Below the pieces are notes generated by a model that ran no database searches, was not told the DNA's origin, and worked only from the letters and a program-made list of their open reading frames with translations. Shown here one piece after another: positions 28,110-35,019 of a DNA stretch of 35,019 nt. Positions within the stretch are counted from its first letter, which is position 1. Each line of letters begins with the position of its first letter. This DNA is from Protofrankia sp. CiP1_Cm_nod1. Its GTDB lineage: Bacteria > Actinomycetota > Actinomycetes > Frankiales > Frankiaceae. Made by a program: the position numbers and the translations under genes. Location: the NCBI RefSeq assembly GCF_920888515.1, contig NZ_CAKKTM010000455.1, positions 1 through 35,019 of the forward strand, in the 5' to 3' direction.

Positions 28110-28412
28110 GGATTGCCAGCGGAAACGATCTGATGATCGTCGTCACATACCGGCAACACCGATACGACAGGCCGGCCGGCAAGCGGGCGGACACCAGAAG
28201 TGACCATACGGCTACAGCCAATAACTGACAGTAGCGATCCGAGCTCCCGTCAACGCTCTCCGAGCAGCATCCGCTCGGCCGCACGGAGGCACACCCGCCA
28301 CGGGGCCGCCGAGCATCACAATAATGATCATAAAGGTCGGATGGGTATGCGGTATTCGACATCCGACACACCGCCGAGACATGCGGAGTACACCTGCTAC
28401 CGTTCCGCTCAA
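28110..28412. other. Gene-free region between phasin-like gene 2 and the ABC importer
   Basis: No convincing gene. A small hairpin CCGAGC-N7-GCTCGG is at 28260-28278, and an AT-rich patch with the palindrome ATGATCAT is near 28324-28331. These may belong to the importer promoter, but no clear -35/-10 pair was found. Confidence 0.4.
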
Positions 28413-28454
28413 CCTGACCGAAGGGTTACACGTCCTGACCGAAGGGTTGCACGT
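28413..28454 (+). repeat. 21-bp tandem repeat duplicating the ribosome site of the ABC gene
   Basis: 28413-28433 and 28434-28454 differ at one base. Each holds GAAGGG followed six bases later by CAC-GT. In copy 2 this gives a GTG start at 28453; in copy 1 the matching codon is GTC. Confidence 0.85.
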
Positions 28455-29208
28455 GACGAAGAGCGCGCGAGGTGAACCCCTGATCGTCATGGAGGGCGTC
28501 GAGAAGTCCTTCGGCGGTTTCCGGGCGCTGCACGTGATCGACCTGACCGTCCACAGCGGCGAGGTGCTCGTCGTCATCGGCCCGTCGGGATCGGGCAAGT
28601 CGACGCTGTGCCGCTGCATCAACCGGCTGGAGACCATCGACGCCGGGCGGATCACGATCGACGGGCGGCAGCTGCCCGAGGAGGGCCGCGCGCTCGCGCG
28701 GTTACGGGCCGAGGTGGGCATGGTCTTCCAGGCGTTCAACCTCTTCGCCCACAAGACCGCGCTGGAGAACGTCACGCTCGGGCCGACAAAGGTCCGGGGA
28801 ATCCCCCGGGAGGCGGCCGAGCGCCGAGGCCGGGAACTGCTCGACCGGGTCGGCGTCGGCGCGAAGGCCGGCAGCTATCCGGCCGAGCTTTCCGGCGGGC
28901 AGCAACAACGTGTCGCGATCGCCCGGGCGCTGGCCATGGACCCAAAAGTGATCCTCTTCGACGAGCCCACCTCGGCCCTCGACCCGGAATACATCGCCGA
29001 AGTGCTCGACGTCATGACCGAACTCGCCCGCGACGGCATGACCATGGTGGTCGTCACCCACGAAATGGGATTCGCTCGGCAGGCCGCGGACCGGGTCGTG
29101 TTCATGGCCGACGGCGGAATCCTCGAGGAGGGCACGCCGGTGGAGTTCTTCGACAGCCCACGGACGCAGCGGGCTCGCGATTTCCTGGCCCGGGTCCTCC
29201 CGCACTGA
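28453..29208 (+). CDS. Amino-acid ABC importer ATP-binding protein (GluA/GlnQ type)
   Basis: 251 aa from the GTG at 28453, with GAAGGG six bases upstream inside the second 21-bp repeat. Walker [10 protein letters not shown] (43-51), Q-loop [10 protein letters not shown], signature LSGGQQQR (146-153), Walker [15 protein letters not shown] (167-180) and [11 protein letters not shown] with the switch His mark a polar-amino-acid ATPase. It heads an operon with a lipoprotein and two permeases, together a complete importer. Energises uptake at the inner membrane. Confidence 0.93.
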
Positions 29209-29287
29209 CCGCGCTGGCTCACCGGTGAGCCGGCCCGCCTCTCCTTCCCCCGTCCACAGCCGACATGATCCCCTCGAAAGGACGACC

Positions 29288-30226
29288 ATGCGGATTCCAC
29301 GCCTGCTGAGCCAGCTCCATCCGTTCCAGCCGCTTCAGCGGCACCCACGGCGGCGACGGAGGCTGGTGACGGCCGTCGTCGCCGGTACCGTCGCGCTCGC
29401 CGCCGCCGGTTGTGGGAGCGATACGACCGGTACCGAGGCCGAAACCACGGCGAAACCCACCTTCGCCACCGGCACCACGGCGGCCAGGCTCGCCGAGGCG
29501 GGGAAGGTCACCGTCGGCACCAAGTTCGACCAGCCGCTGTTCGGGCTGAAGGGCCTCAGCGGCAAGGTCGACGGATTCGACGTCGAAATCGCGAAAATCA
29601 TCGCCGCCGGCCTGGGGATCGGCCCGGAGAACATCACCTTCATCGAGACGCCGTCGGCCCAGCGGGAAGGCGCGATCCAGCAGGGCAGGGTGGACTTCAT
29701 CGTCGCCACCTACACCATCAATGACAAGCGCAAGCAGCTCGTCAGCTTCGCCGGCCCGTATTACCAGGCCGGCCAGGACATCATGGTGAAGAAGGACAAC
29801 ACCACGATCACCGGGCCGGAGTCCCTGCGCGCGGCGAACGCGAAGGTCTGCTCCGTCTCCGGGTCGACCCCGGCCGAGAAAATCAAGGAATACGCCGACG
29901 CGTCCAACATCGTGCTCTTCGATGTCTACTCCAAGTGCGCGGACGCGCTGCGTACCGGCCAGGTCGACGCCGTCACCACCGACAACGTCGTCCTGCTGGG
30001 CCTGGTGGACAGCAGCGGCGGCGCGTTCAAGCTCGTCGGCAAGCCCTTCACCACCGAGCCCTACGGTATCGGCATCAAAAAGGGTGACACCGCCTTCTGC
30101 CAGTTCATCGACGAGCAGCTGACCGCGGCGGCGGCGGACGGCCGCTATGCCAAGGCGTGGGAGGCCACGGCGGGCAAGGTCGCCGGGAGCGCCCCGGCGC
30201 TGCCCACGCTCGGCACCTGCTCCTGA
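29288..30226 (+). CDS. Glutamate-type ABC importer substrate-binding lipoprotein
   Basis: 312 aa; AAAGGA six bases before the ATG. Arg-rich start, hydrophobic LVTAVVAGTVALAAAGC with lipobox Cys42. The solute-binding fold follows: VTVGTKFDQPLFGLKGLSGK, DGFDVEIAKIIAAGLGIG, QGRVDFIVATYTINDKRKQL, FAGPYYQAGQDIMV. This resembles GluB-type glutamate-binding proteins of actinobacteria more than cystine or glutamine proteins, so glutamate or aspartate is the best guess. A perfect 11-bp hairpin follows the gene, as is common where the binding protein is made in excess. Confidence 0.9.
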   Translation: MRIPRLLSQLHPFQPLQRHPRRRRRLVTAVVAGTVALAAAGCGSDTTGTEAETTAKPTFATGTTAARLAEAGKVTVGTKFDQPLFGLKGLSGKVDGFDVEIAKIIAAGLGIGPENITFIETPSAQREGAIQQGRVDFIVATYTINDKRKQLVSFAGPYYQAGQDIMVKKDNTTITGPESLRAANAKVCSVSGSTPAEKIKEYADASNIVLFDVYSKCADALRTGQVDAVTTDNVVLLGLVDSSGGAFKLVGKPFTTEPYGIGIKKGDTAFCQFIDEQLTAAAADGRYAKAWEATAGKVAGSAPALPTLGTCS

Positions 30227-30260
30227 CCGTCGGGCCCCCGCGCCTTTCGTAACCGCTGTG

Positions 30261-30290
30261 GACCGCGCGGCCCCGATGAGCCGCGCGGTC
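30261..30290 (+). terminator. Intra-operon stem-loop after the binding-protein gene
   Basis: GACCGCGCGGC and GCCGCGCGGTC (30261-30271 and 30280-30290) form a perfect 11-bp stem with an 8-base loop. It probably stabilises the upstream message or stops part of transcription, which sets the ratio of binding protein to permeases. Confidence 0.75.
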
Positions 30291-30319
30291 TCCTGAGTCG
30301 ATGCCACCCCGGAGCCGCC

Positions 30320-30970
30320 ATGGATGTCATCACCGACAACCTAGGCCTGTACGCCGACGGCCTGCTGGGAACACTGAAGATCTGCGGTCTGGTCGCCGTG
30401 GCGGCGCTGCTGCTCGGGATCGTTCTCGCGGGGTTCCGGGTGTCGCCGGTGCCGCCCCTGCGTGCCGTGGGCACCACCTATGTGACGCTGGTCCGTAACT
30501 GTCCGCTGACGATCGTCCTGTTCGCCTTCGCCTTCGGCCTGCCGGAAGTGGGGATCAACGGCTCGTACTTCGCCTTCGGGGCCGCCGGGCTCACCGTCTA
30601 CACCGCCGCGTTCGTCTGTGAGGCGGTACGCAGCGGAATCGGCGCGGTGGACGCCGGTCAGGCGGAGGCCGCCCGTTCGATCGGCCTCACCTTCGGCCAG
30701 TCGCTGCGGCTGGTCATCCTGCCGCAGGCACTGCGGGCGGTCATCCCCCCGCTGGGCAACGTCGGGATCGCGATGGTGAAGAACTCGGCGATCGTCGGCG
30801 CGTTCGGGGTCGGTGGCGAACTCTACAGCGTGGCGAGCACGCTCAACGGCGCGCGGGGGGAACCGGCGCTACCGGTCTACTCCGGGGTCGTGATCGGATA
30901 TCTGATCATCATCATCCCGACCGGCCTGCTCGTGCTGGCGGCGGAGAAACGGCTACGGGTGACCCGGTGA
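30320..30970 (+). CDS. Amino-acid ABC importer permease 1 (GluC type)
   Basis: 216 aa; ATG at 30320. About five membrane helices and the permease coupling motif EAARSIGLTFGQSLRLVILP (EAA-x3-G), followed by RAVIPPLGNVGIAMVKNSAI as in HisMQ-type permeases. N-terminal LRTLKIC-like segment reads LLGTLKICGLVAVAALLLG. It forms the channel with permease 2, whose start overlaps its stop codon (GTGA). Confidence 0.92.
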   Translation: MDVITDNLGLYADGLLGTLKICGLVAVAALLLGIVLAGFRVSPVPPLRAVGTTYVTLVRNCPLTIVLFAFAFGLPEVGINGSYFAFGAAGLTVYTAAFVCEAVRSGIGAVDAGQAEAARSIGLTFGQSLRLVILPQALRAVIPPLGNVGIAMVKNSAIVGAFGVGGELYSVASTLNGARGEPALPVYSGVVIGYLIIIIPTGLLVLAAEKRLRVTR

Positions 30971-31824
30971 GCGGCTCAGTCCTCTACGACACCCCGGGTC
31001 CAAGGGGACGCCGGCGGATCGCCGTCGCCAGCGTGGCCGCCGGCATCGCGCTGGCCGCGCTGGCCGCGCTGGCCGTCCGTCGGCTGGCGGCGAACGGCCA
31101 GTTCGACGGCAGCCGGTGGAGCCCGCTGTTCAACCCCGGCGACGAGAACTTCCCGGCCCTGTGGCGTCTGCTCGGCGGCGGTCTGGTGCACACCCTGACC
31201 GCCGCCGGCCTGGCGATGTCCTTCTCCCTGGTGCTCGGGGTGCTCATCGCGACGACCAGGATCTCCGCGGCCCGGTGGTACCGGTGGGCCGTGGTCGGGG
31301 TGGTCGAGCTGCTGCGCGGCGTCCCCGTGGTGATCGCGATCTTTTTCGCGGCGCAGGTTCTCCCGGTCTACGGGCTGAAGCTGCCGCCGCTGTGGTACAT
31401 CGTGATCGGTCTGACCGCCTACAACTCGGTGGTCATCTCCGAGATCGTCCGGGCGGGCATCCTCGCGGTGCCGAAGGGGCAGCGCGAGGCGGCCGCCGCC
31501 CTGGGCCTCACCCGCGGCCAGACGCTGCGGATCGTCCTGCTGCCGCAGGCGTTCCGCTCGATGCTGCCGGCGCTGATCAGCCAGCTCGTGGTGATCCTCA
31601 AGGACACCTCGCTCGGGGCCTTCATCTCCTACGAGGAGCTGCTGCGCCGGGCCCTGATCGCCATCCAGACCCTGCACAACCCGATCCAGACCTATCTGGT
31701 CATCGGCGGCATCTTCATCCTCGTCAACTACCTGGTGACCAGGCTGGCGACCTACCTGGAGGCGCGGCTGTCCGGCCGGCGGGCCAGGCCGTCCGTGCCC
31801 GCGGAGGACCTGTCCACCGGATAG
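30967..31824 (+). CDS. Amino-acid ABC importer permease 2 (GluD type)
   Basis: 285 aa from a GTG overlapping the stop codon of permease 1. It is longer at the N-terminus, with an added membrane helix (VASVAAGIALAALAALAV) and a periplasmic loop. The core shows VVELLRGVPVVIAIFFAAQV, YNSVVISEIVRAGILAVPKG and the coupling motif EAAAALGLTRGQTLRIVLLP. The protein completes the importer. A strong 17-bp stem-loop follows, separating it from the convergent dioxygenase. Confidence 0.92.
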   Translation: MSGSVLYDTPGPRGRRRIAVASVAAGIALAALAALAVRRLAANGQFDGSRWSPLFNPGDENFPALWRLLGGGLVHTLTAAGLAMSFSLVLGVLIATTRISAARWYRWAVVGVVELLRGVPVVIAIFFAAQVLPVYGLKLPPLWYIVIGLTAYNSVVISEIVRAGILAVPKGQREAAAALGLTRGQTLRIVLLPQAFRSMLPALISQLVVILKDTSLGAFISYEELLRRALIAIQTLHNPIQTYLVIGGIFILVNYLVTRLATYLEARLSGRRARPSVPAEDLSTG

Positions 31825-31935: not shown

Positions 31936-32862
31936 TCAGCCGGCGAGGAAGGGCTGCCCGGCCACGGGTTCCGACTGCCGCCCGTCGACCCCGACCGGGA
32001 TGTCCCCTTCCAGGGTGATCCGGTACAGCACGCGGTCGAAGTCGAGGTGGCCCAGGTCGGACGGGCCCAGATGCGCGGTCGCCCGGTTGTCCCAGAAAGC
32101 GACGTCACCCGGGCTCCAGCGGAACCGCACCGTGTACTCGGGCCGGGCGATCTGCTCGTAGAAGAGCTCGAGAATCCGGTGGCTCTGCCGCGGGGAGAAC
32201 CCGATGATCTCGTTCTCCCCGGAGGTGAAGCTCGGGCTGACGAAAAGCGCCCGCTCACCCGTTTCCGGGTGCACCCGGACCACCGGGTGCACCGCCACCA
32301 GCGGATTCGACGCGATCTTCTCCCCGTAGGGGGTCCCGGCCAGCAGGCGGGGGCTGAAGCTGTGCTTGGCCCGTAGCCCGTCGGCGAGCCTGCGCAGTTC
32401 TTCCGGAAGGCCCTCGTAAGCCGCGACCAGATTCGTCCAGGCGGTGTCACCGCCGTACGGGGGGACAATGTCGGCGCGCAGGATCGACCCGGCCGGCGGG
32501 TTCACCAGCGCCGTGACATCGGTGTGCCAGCCGTTGTCATAGGTGACCTTCCGCTTGCCGAACTTCTTCTCGTAACGGCGGCTGTCGATCGGCAGGATCT
32601 GCGGGAAGCCCTCGGGCGGGGCGTCCTCGTGCGGATGGGCGGGAGTGATCTTACCGAACCTGGCGCCGAAGGCGATCTGCTCGGCGTGGCCGATGGACTG
32701 GTCGCGGAAGAACACGACCTTCCAGCGCAGCAGGGCGGAACGGATCTCGGCGATCGTGGCGTCGTCGGGCCGCTGGCTCAGGTCGACGCCGTGAATCTCG
32801 GCTCCGGTGTGCCCGGAAAGCGGCCGGACGTCGATACCCAGCCGCTGGACGGTACTTGTCAT
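31936..32862 (-). CDS. TauD/TfdA-family Fe(II)/2-oxoglutarate dioxygenase, AtsK-like
   Basis: 308 aa from the ATG at 32862 (GGAG nine bases upstream). The iron triad is visible: His113 and Asp115 in GWHTDVTAL and His264 in DNRATAHLG. A 2-oxoglutarate-binding Arg is in LYRITLEGD (Arg281). Conserved stretches ILRADIVPPYGGDTAWTN, HPVVRVHPETGERALFV and DIPVGVDGRQSEP resemble alkyl-sulfate-ester dioxygenases (AtsK type) more than taurine dioxygenase. Such enzymes release sulfite or sulfate from organosulfur compounds under sulfur limitation. The leader peptide and ROK regulator upstream on the same strand may share its regulation. The exact substrate cannot be read from sequence. Confidence 0.87.
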   Translation of the reverse strand: MTSTVQRLGIDVRPLSGHTGAEIHGVDLSQRPDDATIAEIRSALLRWKVVFFRDQSIGHAEQIAFGARFGKITPAHPHEDAPPEGFPQILPIDSRRYEKKFGKRKVTYDNGWHTDVTALVNPPAGSILRADIVPPYGGDTAWTNLVAAYEGLPEELRRLADGLRAKHSFSPRLLAGTPYGEKIASNPLVAVHPVVRVHPETGERALFVSPSFTSGENEIIGFSPRQSHRILELFYEQIARPEYTVRFRWSPGDVAFWDNRATAHLGPSDLGHLDFDRVLYRITLEGDIPVGVDGRQSEPVAGQPFLAG

Positions 32863-33227
32863 CGCTGCGTGCTCCAGACTGGTTGGCGGAAAGAACAGCC
32901 GGCCACCGGCATACAGCTGGGATACGAGTGGCACAGCAAACGGCGGCGGCAGCCCGCGGCGGGCCCTGAATCACTCGGAAGAACGCCACGGAACCACGGC
33001 CCCGACGCCTACGAAAGAATCAGGGCCAGCACGTCGCGTAATGCGGGAGAACAGTGACGGGCGACACGGTCAGCACACCCGGGCAATGCGCACCGGCACG
33101 ATGCGCACGCCGGCGGCGTACATTCATGAGATGTACGCCGGGACGCGGTGTACCCGATGTCGCTCATGTTTCGATAATCATGCCGCCGGCCGGCCGGGTC
33201 AATGTTTACCGTTCGAGTGAAAATAAC
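32863..33227. promoter_or_regulatory. Region between ROK and dioxygenase genes, with an inverted repeat
   Basis: No gene was recognised in these 365 bases. CGGCGTACAT (33114-33123) and ATGTACGCCG (33131-33140) form a perfect 10-bp inverted repeat with a 7-base spacer, sized for a dimeric repressor and 252 bp upstream of the dioxygenase. GGCCCTGA and TCAGGGCC (32962-32969 and 33020-33027) are a longer-range pair. The repeat may be the ROK operator; this is inference. Confidence 0.45.
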
Positions 33228-34511
33228 TCAGCCGGGCAGCCGTCCGGCTCCGGCCCCGGCTCCGGCCCGGGCCGGGGCCGGAGCCGGGGCCGGGGCCGGA
33301 GCCGGGGCCGGGGCCGGGCACAGGCTGCGTGGGCTGCGGTGGACGGCGTCCAGCACGGTCGCGCTCGCCGCGACGGCAAGGGTGCGCGGGCCGAAACGGG
33401 TGGGCAGCACGGTGCGTTCGGGGCTGGCGCACACCCGTGAGTGCGCCGCGATCTGCTCGTACAGGTCGGGCAGCAGGTCCGGCAGGAAGATCGCGGCAGC
33501 CTCGGTGAGTACCAGCACCTCCGGATCGATCATGTCCAGCAGCAGGGCCACCAGCCGGCCGATGACGCGCAGCCGCTCCCGGAAGAGCGCCAGTACGCGC
33601 TGGTCGCCACGGCGGGCCGCGTCCAGCAGGAGACACAGGTCGGGCTTCTCGATCATCCCTTCCCGGACCGCCCGCTCCAGCAGGACCCGTTCCGAGATGG
33701 CGGCCTGCACACAGCCGGACCGCCCGCAGGGGCAGCGCACCGAACTGTCCGCCAGCGGCAGGTGGGCGACGTCCCCGGCGCCGGCGTGCGGGCCCCAGTG
33801 CACCTCGCCGCCAGTGGCGATCGCCGCGTCGACGACGTTCCCGACGAACAGGTGCACCAGGCTGCGCCGGGCCCGCGGATCCCCGAACATGATCTCCGCC
33901 TGCGCCAGCGCACGGGCATGGCCGTCCACATGGACGGGCAGGCCGGTCGTCTCGGCGAGCACCTGGCGGACCGGCACGTCACGCCACCCCAGCAGCCCGT
34001 GCTCGACGATGACCCCACGCTGCGGGTCCACCCATCCGCCGGTGACCACCCCCAGCCCGAGCAGCCGGGTGCCCCGGGCGTGCCGTGCCACGAAGCCGGG
34101 AAGATACTGGCTGATCTGCCGCAGCACCTCGTGCGCGTCGCCCTGGTGCGGCACGCTCTCGTGGGCCACCACCTGGCCGCGCAGGTCCACCAGGCCGAAG
34201 GTGATGCTGGGGACGGCGATGTGCACCCCGCAGGCGAGGTGACGCTGGGTGTCGATGTCCAGGGGGACGAACGGCCGGCCGGCGCGCGGCGGGCTGGACA
34301 GCGCCGGCAGCTCGCGCAGCAGCCCGAGGGAGATCAGGTCAGCGGTCTGCCGCGACACCACGGCCGGGCTCAGCCCGGTCGCGCGGCCGATGAGGGTACG
34401 CGCCACCGGCCCGTGATCCAACACGGCGCGCAGCACCACCGCGGCGGTGCCGGTCGGGTCCGGGCGGACCGCGGTCATGGACGACGCCAGGGACTGGTTG
34501 CGTGCCGGCAT
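33228..34511 (-). CDS. ROK-family transcriptional regulator with Ala-Pro/Ala-Gly tail
   Basis: 427 aa; ATG with GAGGAGG six bases upstream. N-terminal winged helix (about 20-85: ARTLIGRATGLSPAVVSRQT), then a ROK fold. The zinc site is kept (His250 and CPCGRSGC, Cys260/262/267). The phosphate-binding DxGGTK loop of ROK kinases is replaced by GVHIAVPSIT, so it is a regulator, not a sugar kinase. The usual ligand-contacting END/ENDxN segment reads HVDGHARALAQ, so the ligand may not be a standard sugar. The last 35 residues are an Ala-Pro then Ala-Gly repeat encoded by the GC hexamer array at 33244-33319. A 26-codon leader ORF and a 265-base leader lie upstream. Confidence 0.88.
   Translation of the reverse strand: MPARNQSLASSMTAVRPDPTGTAAVVLRAVLDHGPVARTLIGRATGLSPAVVSRQTADLISLGLLRELPALSSPPRAGRPFVPLDIDTQRHLACGVHIAVPSITFGLVDLRGQVVAHESVPHQGDAHEVLRQISQYLPGFVARHARGTRLLGLGVVTGGWVDPQRGVIVEHGLLGWRDVPVRQVLAETTGLPVHVDGHARALAQAEIMFGDPRARRSLVHLFVGNVVDAAIATGGEVHWGPHAGAGDVAHLPLADSSVRCPCGRSGCVQAAISERVLLERAVREGMIEKPDLCLLLDAARRGDQRVLALFRERLRVIGRLVALLLDMIDPEVLVLTEAAAIFLPDLLPDLYEQIAAHSRVCASPERTVLPTRFGPRTLAVAASATVLDAVHRSPRSLCPAPAPAPAPAPAPAPARAGAGAGAGRLPG
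33244..33319. repeat. GC-hexamer tandem array that flips orientation
   Basis: CCGGCT/CCGGCC hexamers run left to about 33270, then, after the palindrome GGCCCGGGCC, the same units continue as their complement (GGCCGG/AGCCGG). The whole can fold as a long hairpin. It encodes the C-terminal Ala-Pro and Ala-Gly repeats of the ROK protein and is likely to vary in copy number. Confidence 0.8.
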
Positions 34512-34776
34512 GGCTGACCTCCTCGCGGCTGCGGTGCTGCATGCGGACTCGGCAGGGCCGCGGATGCGCGGACGTCGTCACGGCCCACGTGGTGGGCGGA
34601 CACACGGACCCACGTCGCCCGTCCCGCAAATGATCAATCTGATGGGGCCCGAGGCCCTGGTCAGGGCTGACACCCCTCTCGATGCCGCCTGCCAGCAGGG
34701 AAACAGCGGAGCCCGGGATGAAGAAGGAGTACATGTATCCGGACGGCCTGGGCACGCTGGGAATCCAGCGGCGGCA
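34512..34776 (-). promoter_or_regulatory. Leader region between the leader peptide and the ROK gene
   Basis: Candidate attenuator: GCCCAC-GTG-GTGGGC (34583-34597) is a perfect hairpin, and GCCCTG-GT-CAGGGC lies near 34651-34664. No gene other than the leader peptide is supported here. Confidence 0.45.
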
Positions 34777-34857
34777 TCAGGCGGATGGACAGAGCGCGCT
34801 CGCCACGCGACGGAGGTCGACGTGCGCGCGGCAGACCAGATAGGTATGCCGGCTCAT
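34777..34857 (-). CDS. Leaderless 26-residue HVDLxR leader peptide (attenuator-type)
   Basis: ATG at 34857 to TGA at 34779-34777, product MSRHTYLVCRAHVDLRRVAS followed by ALCPSA. The core R-x-HVDL-x-R-x-AS-x-LC is the signature of short leader peptides found before sulfur-related and other operons in actinobacteria. The promoter TTGACA-N17-TAGCGT ends eight bases before the ATG, so the mRNA should begin at or next to the start codon. The two Cys codons would allow ribosome stalling to report cysteinyl-tRNA. The first downstream gene on this strand is the ROK regulator. The peptide is too short to carry an independent function. Confidence 0.75.
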   Translation of the reverse strand: MSRHTYLVCRAHVDLRRVASALCPSA

Positions 34858-34864
34858 ACCCTCG

Positions 34865-34893
34865 ACGCTAGGCAACACCCGAATGGTTGTCAA
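34865..34893 (-). promoter_or_regulatory. Promoter of the leader peptide and ROK gene
   Basis: On the minus strand: TTGACA (34893-34888), a 17-base spacer and TAGCGT (34870-34865). It predicts a start at about 34858-34857, on the ATG. The -35 box is a consensus match. Confidence 0.75.
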
Positions 34894-35019
34894 CCAGGCC
34901 GATGGGGAACACCCGCCCCATCCCCATCCCCGTCCCTGCCGCCGCCGCCCGCCCGCCCGGCCGGCGTCCGGCGCGACGGACCGCCGAGGCCGGGCCGGCG
35001 GCGGGAACGTACGCGGGCC

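Follow-up and report, generated by a model that had tools for sequence, protein, structure and literature searches.

Organization of the leader-ROK-tauD locus

Close to one end of the window, i.e. the whole 35,019-nt stretch of DNA analysed here, a short leader ORF with its promoter, a gene for a ROK-family regulator and a gene for a TauD-like dioxygenase follow one another on the minus strand. The features discussed below are as follows (coordinates are those of the window).

34888..34893, minus strand: -35 hexamer TTGACA of the leader promoter, read from the sequence; TTGACA or TTGAAA stands there in 18/18 Frankiaceae orthologs
34865..34870, minus strand: -10 hexamer TAGCGT of the leader promoter, read from the sequence; TAnnnT in 18/18 orthologs
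34777..34857, minus strand: predicted leaderless leader-peptide ORF, 26 codons plus stop (NF042934 match; ortholog conservation)
34812..34818, minus strand: GACCTCC within the Asp-Leu-Arg codons, candidate sequestering strand, complementary to GGAGGTC at the ROK Shine-Dalgarno (SD) sequence
34789..34791, minus strand: invariant UGU Cys codon, proposed sensor (TGT in 148/150 among the leaders listed)
34518..34522, minus strand: SD sequence GGAGG of the ROK gene, read from the sequence
33228..34511, minus strand: ROK-family regulator (PF00480, 104.5 bits, cut-off 22.9)
33203..33226, minus strand: dyad operator TTATTTTCACTCGAACGGTAAACA, candidate ROK site, abutting the tauD promoter (19/19 orthologs)
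33174..33202, minus strand: further promoter, TTGACC-N17-GATTAT, with an ATG 6 nt after it; probably that of tauD, near-identical in genomes G001 and G002
31936..32934, minus strand: TauD/TfdA-family dioxygenase, taurine dioxygenase-like (PF02668, 194.7 bits)

The leader peptide, its promoter and their conservation

Read along the minus strand, the leader promoter consists of TTGACA, a 17-nt spacer and TAGCGT, followed after 7 nt by the ATG at 34857-34855. The ORF encodes the 26-aa peptide MSRHTYLVCRAHVDLRRVASALCPSA and ends with a stop codon at 34779-34777. The initial annotation had described a TTGACA-N17-TAGCGT promoter, which is indeed present, and its geometry is kept in all 18 readable Frankiaceae orthologs. 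Promoter geometry predicts that transcription starts at the leader's own ATG, at 34857-34858, the very position proposed earlier, and the 26-codon ORF of the HVDLxR class postulated there, predicted to be leaderless, is borne out by the sequence, by its NF042934 score and by conservation. A listed 38-aa ORF with a TTG start (34893-34777) was discarded as a separate gene, being the leader frame extended through the promoter. The contig ends at position 35019, so that 162 nt are known 5' of the leader ATG.

The proposed comparison of leader and ROK synteny in relatives gave a uniform picture. The leader lies 5' of the ROK gene, on the same strand, in 18 of the 19 Frankiaceae ROK orthologs; in the 19th (G021) the contig stops 120 nt 5' of ROK, which leaves 18 readable cases, all with the leader. 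Among these 18, the spacing between the -35 and -10 hexamers is 17 nt (16 cases) or 18 nt (2 cases), the distance from the -10 hexamer to the ATG is always 6-8 nt, and the -35 hexamer reads TTGAAA once. The gap between leader and ROK is poorly conserved in both sequence and length: ungapped DNA identity between the genome of the window (G000) and G001 is 0.91 for the leader and 0.76 for the gap, and between G000 and G003 it is 0.86 and 0.51, respectively.

Beyond these orthologs the association is looser. In a second family (f18) a leader was found at three of eight ROK homolog loci, the other five having none within 1500 nt. A variant leader is present at a ROK paralog locus of G001 (contig C92). 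At a ROK homolog locus of another family (G071, C16) the region upstream of ROK is devoid of a leader, and one lies 3' of ROK, before a gene for a peptide-binding protein.

The degenerate core pattern H-V-D-L/F-x-R-x-x-S/T-x-L/F-C matched in 31 of the 97 related genomes; a slightly wider version matched in 174 of the 393 genomes of the class, representing 51 of 122 genera. As a control, the reversed pattern gave zero matches in either genome set. That the leader exceeds chance follows from the absence of reversed-pattern matches together with the conservation of orthologs and promoter. At the sequence level, the leader can be regarded as confirmed, as a conserved element of a known kind.

Leader class and sulfur context

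The peptide scores 27.8 bits against the NCBIfam model NF042934 ('putative leader peptide', cis_reg_atten) in a protein search, the curated cut-off being 27, and 26.0 bits, i.e. under the cut-off, in a six-frame search of the whole genome. Because of these two values its membership is borderline in score, while clear in kind. The feature common to the family is the HVDLxR-type core, and the family name alone does not amount to a functional test. With 21.6 bits against a cut-off of 45, the leader is not a member of NF042936 (Ms4527A family Cys-rich leader peptide), and no Pfam model matches it. In the genome of the window 14 NF042934 matches were found at E up to 1, six of which exceed the cut-off; weak matches occur in six of 14 control genomes, none exceeding it.

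Further leaders of the same genome that were followed up precede genes for sulfite reductase, S-adenosylmethionine synthetase, a luciferase-type monooxygenase and peptide-binding proteins. Pfam recognized all but one of the six ORFs behind them. Class-wide, the Pfam tally covers the ORFs 3' of 70 other leaders (83 leaders minus 13 with ROK downstream; another two, L022 and L144, yielded no ORF), which were picked by a rough GC3-type gene-calling script. They include 16 nitrite/sulfite reductases and nine luciferase-type monooxygenases, eight of which match alkanesulfonate monooxygenase, besides SsuA/NMT1-type and peptide-binding proteins, TauD, TauE and a wide range of families represented once each. 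The context of the leader class is sulfur metabolism.

That the next gene after the leader encodes a ROK protein had been recognized correctly. However, the accompanying remark that this is a regulator rather than an assimilation gene missed the wider context: tauD lies 3' of ROK in 17 of the 19 Frankiaceae orthologs, and ssuA-, ssuC- and ssuB-like genes are annotated after tauD in the handful of relatives checked, to which the annotation of genes beyond tauD is confined and whose gene calls, from the GC3 script, are rough.

A single fixed UGU codon

The initial annotation drew attention to two Cys codons. Both are present, but only the second is conserved: eight of the 18 orthologs have Gly, Ser or Arg in place of the first Cys, whereas the last is invariant in 18/18. 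The idea of two Cys codons working as a pair was rejected, since the first is missing so often.

The last Cys is encoded by UGU in 148 of the 150 leaders listed, though internal Cys codons of the same listed peptides are mostly UGC (24, versus 5 UGU), which argues for selection on the codon itself. The other core codons of the listed matches have G or C as third base in 72-99% of cases, and Cys codons in neighbouring gene calls are UGC 543 times and UGU 120 times. A pattern demanding UGC gave 2 matches in 393 genomes versus about 307 matches in all (the class-wide total is a hand sum; codon and residue counts rest on the 150 matches listed). In the genome of the window, UGU stands at the last Cys in 8/8 leaders resolved by the script, out of 12 tried. 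A pyrimidine follows UGU in 82 of the 84 loci sampled; class-wide, 31 matches, about a tenth, have a purine there. As the matches share common descent, these counts are given without a p-value. The residue after the conserved Cys is variable.

In most bacteria both Cys codons are decoded by one tRNA. Taken together with the fixation of UGU, this makes slow wobble decoding, by which a single UGU codon would serve as a sensitive sensor, the simplest reading. A synonymous change at the fixed UGU could discriminate, for hundreds of leaders, between sensing through the tRNA and sensing through the peptide. A literature search on the HVDLxR motif and on UGU in leaders, most subscription journals lying outside its scope, found no paper on the codon bias; as far as searched, the UGU fixation and the operator link between ROK and tauD are new.

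The gap between leader and ROK

About 265 nt separate the leader from ROK in the window, and the distance from leader to SD ranges from about 100 to 410 nt across the sequences. No intrinsic terminator-like site was detected between leader and ROK (34776 to 34512), nor does Rfam match there, and a classical terminator/antiterminator attenuator was rejected on these grounds. Each of the 19 gaps examined contains more C than G, the excess in the window's gap being modest (0.37 vs 0.32).

The complementarity of GACCTCC to the ROK SD suggests that the leader RNA could possibly mask this site, for which the evidence is mixed. In folding calculations the SD was paired with the leader at a probability of at least 0.7 in 9 of the 19 sequences examined (G002, G001, G008, G018, G024, G023, G005, G022 and the G001 paralog); for the window's own sequence the value is just 0.08. 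Simulated ribosome stalling raised mean SD accessibility only slightly, from 0.136 to 0.197, and had almost no effect in the window's own sequence (0.19 to 0.20). Cognate leader-SD pairing was better than shuffled in 30-nt segments starting at -3, +3 and +9 from the His codon, which span HVDLxRVAS (8, 70 and 120 of 5000 shuffles, respectively). It was no better than shuffled in nine other leader segments or for the whole leader (5675 of 20000). A test by synonymous recoding gave a mean z of -0.77; groups g1 and g5 supported the pairing, g2 and g6 did not.

The ROK regulator and the tauD operator

The ROK domain was recognized by PF00480 with 104.5 bits. The N-terminal region (residues 20-66) resembles a winged helix, MarR_2 scoring 24.5 bits there, under its cut-off of 27. 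The protein carries CPCGRSGC from residue 260 and contains no DxGGT motif; we take the former to be the Zn motif and the latter the kinase motif of the ROK family. Its nearest named relatives are from Protofrankia coriariae (92% identity) and Candidatus Frankia californiensis (88%). The DNA for its Pro-Ala-rich C-terminal tail contains a short GC-only repeat (33252-33317). A role of PF00480 and PF14340 proteins in sulfur metabolism has reportedly been suggested from expression regulation by Lyubetsky et al. in 2014 (Comput Biol Chem 49:7; cited in PMC4833913 and PMC5850271). At the level of that title the claim for ROK is the same as ours, and the ROK-sulfur link is not new, having been proposed there already.

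The TauD protein scores 218.5 bits against NF007104 (cut-off 313), and the ATG at 32862 is probably the true start of tauD. As tauD has a separate conserved promoter, ROK looks like a transcription unit of its own. A single leader-ROK-tauD operon under one leader was dropped from consideration because of this promoter-like site before tauD, conserved in relatives. The earlier idea that the regulator itself stands under leader control fits this arrangement better than does simple operon control.

A weight matrix for the operator was built from 11 sites. A matrix site abutting TTGAC occurs in 19/19 Frankiaceae orthologs. G003 and G004 have tauD on the upstream side of ROK, and there too the operator precedes tauD. 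Sites outside the matrix set score 20.2-27.6 (G003, G004, G022, G026 and G013), those in G001, G005 and G018 being copies of sites used for the matrix. Other matches in the ortholog loci reach at most 15.4, except for one of 20.5 at the G071 locus, which does not abut TTGAC, and the best operator matches near the leader promoter stay below 13 bits. Searched for in eight whole genomes, the operator pattern gave 12 sites, all of which precede or adjoin tauD-family genes; the reversed pattern gave none in the same genomes. Of the extra sites, those in G000, G001 and G002 each stand immediately before a second tauD-family gene, and that in G004 adjoins a tauD-like fragment. In G000, the genome of the window, this second copy lies at C378:1809-1837 (plus strand, locus L193), directly before another tauD-family gene.

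From its adjacency and co-conservation we infer that the dyad at 33203-33226 would be bound by ROK. Its half-site presumably resembles NagC/Mlc operators. The position of the operator just upstream of the tauD -35 hexamer would suit a role of ROK as an activator of tauD. An activator would also suit observations in Rhodococcus qingshengii IGTS8. There, according to the accessible text of PMC8557817, a ROK regulator reached an abundance on dibenzothiophene 18-33 times that on sulfate, and the TauD and the choline sulfatase encoded next to it were detected in dibenzothiophene culture alone. The operator supplies a defined candidate target for the Frankiaceae ROK group.

Comparison with known cysteine leaders

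Attenuation by polycysteine leaderless short ORFs in Mycobacterium smegmatis is said to have been described by Canestrari et al. in 2020 (PMC8764745). According to the portions of the sources that were available, these ORFs attenuate by ribosome speed (PMC9031893; such attenuation is also described in PMC9094748 and PMC13236596). The statement in the initial annotation that peptides of this kind act as attenuators in actinobacteria holds for the polycysteine leaders tested experimentally in mycobacteria, so far as those portions go; for the present class member it would be a prediction. What the two types have in common is a leaderless short ORF (predicted in our case) that precedes sulfur genes and has a Cys codon towards its 3' end. 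However, the M. smegmatis type, as portrayed in the same portions, has contiguous Cys codons, whereas the Frankiaceae leader has one conserved Cys codon, UGU, the first Cys being absent in 8/18, and a regulator downstream.

Cysteine leaders without terminators were predicted in Actinobacteria by Seliverstov et al. (2005; PMC1262725). As far as the available text of that work goes, the leaders of its cys operons resemble ours in having a Cys codon near the stop and no obvious terminator, and differ in having runs of Cys codons and preceding biosynthetic operons. The uORFC-8-2 attenuator of cysS in Rhodobacterales (PMC8632094) is likewise a leader with Cys codons for a cysteine-related gene; unlike our leader, it is depicted in the available sections with two tandem Cys codons, a predominance of UGC and a U-run as in an intrinsic terminator.

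A proposed cysteine-responsive circuit and its alternatives

Based on our observations, we consider it fairly probable that the leader is a cysteine-responsive leaderless attenuator that sets the amount of ROK, and that ROK controls tauD via the conserved operator. The elements of this circuit legible in the DNA itself are the promoter geometry, the conservation of the ORF, the UGU fixation, the sulfur context and the conserved operator with its tie to tauD. Ribosomes would start on the 5'-terminal AUG of the leader. When Cys-tRNA is plentiful, the single UGU would be passed and the stop met four codons later; the RNA encoding HVDL(R) would then be free to pair with the ROK SD, so that little ROK would be made, and Rho might in addition be recruited by the C-rich gap, left untranslated. 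When cysteine is scarce, the ribosome would stall with UGU in the A site, leaving GACCTCC just outside its 5' edge, where a second, stacked ribosome would cover the HVDL segment. ROK would then be translated and act at the promoters of tauD, the simplest assumption being that it activates them. The supposed cascade would thus lead from cysteine shortage through a stall at UGU and more ROK to control of tauD. Points against it are that the leader has one conserved Cys codon, unlike the experimentally studied polycysteine leaders, that the signal of leader-SD pairing is uneven, that the distance from leader to SD differs so much between sequences, and that most ROK homolog loci in f18 show no leader within 1500 nt. 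With such a circuit, the catalogue entry 'putative leader peptide' would turn into something testable, composed of codon sensor, regulator, operator and target.

The SD pairing might have no role at all if attenuation depended on Rho, with the stalled ribosome shielding the RNA or keeping coupling intact and the freed C-rich gap provoking a Rho stop before ROK. The absence of an intrinsic terminator-like site from the gap speaks for this possibility, as do the general preponderance of C over G in the gaps, their poor conservation in sequence and length, and the same proposal for mycobacterial cys leaders lacking terminators, as given in the accessible text of PMC1262725. However, the C excess is modest in the window and the signal of cognate leader-SD pairing would be left unexplained, and we regard Rho-dependent attenuation as rather doubtful. 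Alternatively, the nascent HVDLxRxASxLC chain might stall the ribosome on a sulfur metabolite, in the manner of arrest peptides, the Cys codon being just a part of it. A simple codon sensor needs only Cys, yet the residues around it are conserved in the 18 ROK leaders, which were collected with a looser pattern (the class-wide pattern demanded His, Asp, Arg and Cys and so cannot show their conservation). A peptide-level sensor, in turn, needs no codon choice, and the near-exclusive use of UGU instead of the commoner UGC in the listed leaders, along with the variable residue after Cys, makes sensing by the peptide an unlikely explanation.

The ORF might, finally, merely feed translation, e.g. 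by reinitiation, with ROK and tauD being regulated by transcription factors alone. The ROK gene has a strong SD of its own, the tauD operator is a DNA element, and leader genes can raise downstream translation (PMC4833913, available text). That effect, however, is reported there for gaps near 10 nt, compared with about 265 nt here, and a constitutive leader would provide no reason for the UGU fixation or for the sulfur genes downstream across the class, for which we deem it quite improbable.

Additional leaders and neighbouring genes

In Frankia g5 (L077, L078, L079, L080, L081 and L082) a leaderless GTG ORF follows the tauD promoter, between ROK and tauD. Its RCRRC ending is conserved in 6/6 genomes and lies directly before the stop in five, in which the last Cys codon is UGU; this ORF is probably a further cysteine leader, different in type from the first. 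At L091 (G001, C92) a leaderless polycysteine ORF ending in CCPCCCC lies between the ROK paralog and an SsuA-like gene. It is like the mycobacterial type, while the leader before ROK at the same locus is of the HVDLxR type.

These two cases, the GTG ORF before tauD in g5 and the polycysteine ORF before the SsuA-like gene in G001, suggest that cysteine leaders may stand before both the regulator and its target. More tentatively than for the circuit itself, and with somewhat greater doubt than belief, we propose that a single wobble-read UGU, selected as a codon, might be the sensor class-wide, that in Frankiaceae it might feed a ROK activator of tauD, and that tauD or ssuA of some lineages might carry a second cysteine leader. 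If true, this would be a two-tier cysteine cascade in which the ribosome acts on the regulator and the regulator on a target that is itself gated by the ribosome.

In the window, a 52-codon Cys-rich ORF (33167-33009, minus strand) begins 6 nt after the -10 hexamer of the tauD promoter. It is not claimed as a leader, for it is not conserved in G001 and G002, though the promoter is. A polar amino-acid ABC transporter is encoded at 28324-31824 on the plus strand, convergent with tauD; its permeases come closest to models of cystine and ectoine transporters, all with scores under the cut-off, and G001 and G002 have related genes at the corresponding side of the locus.
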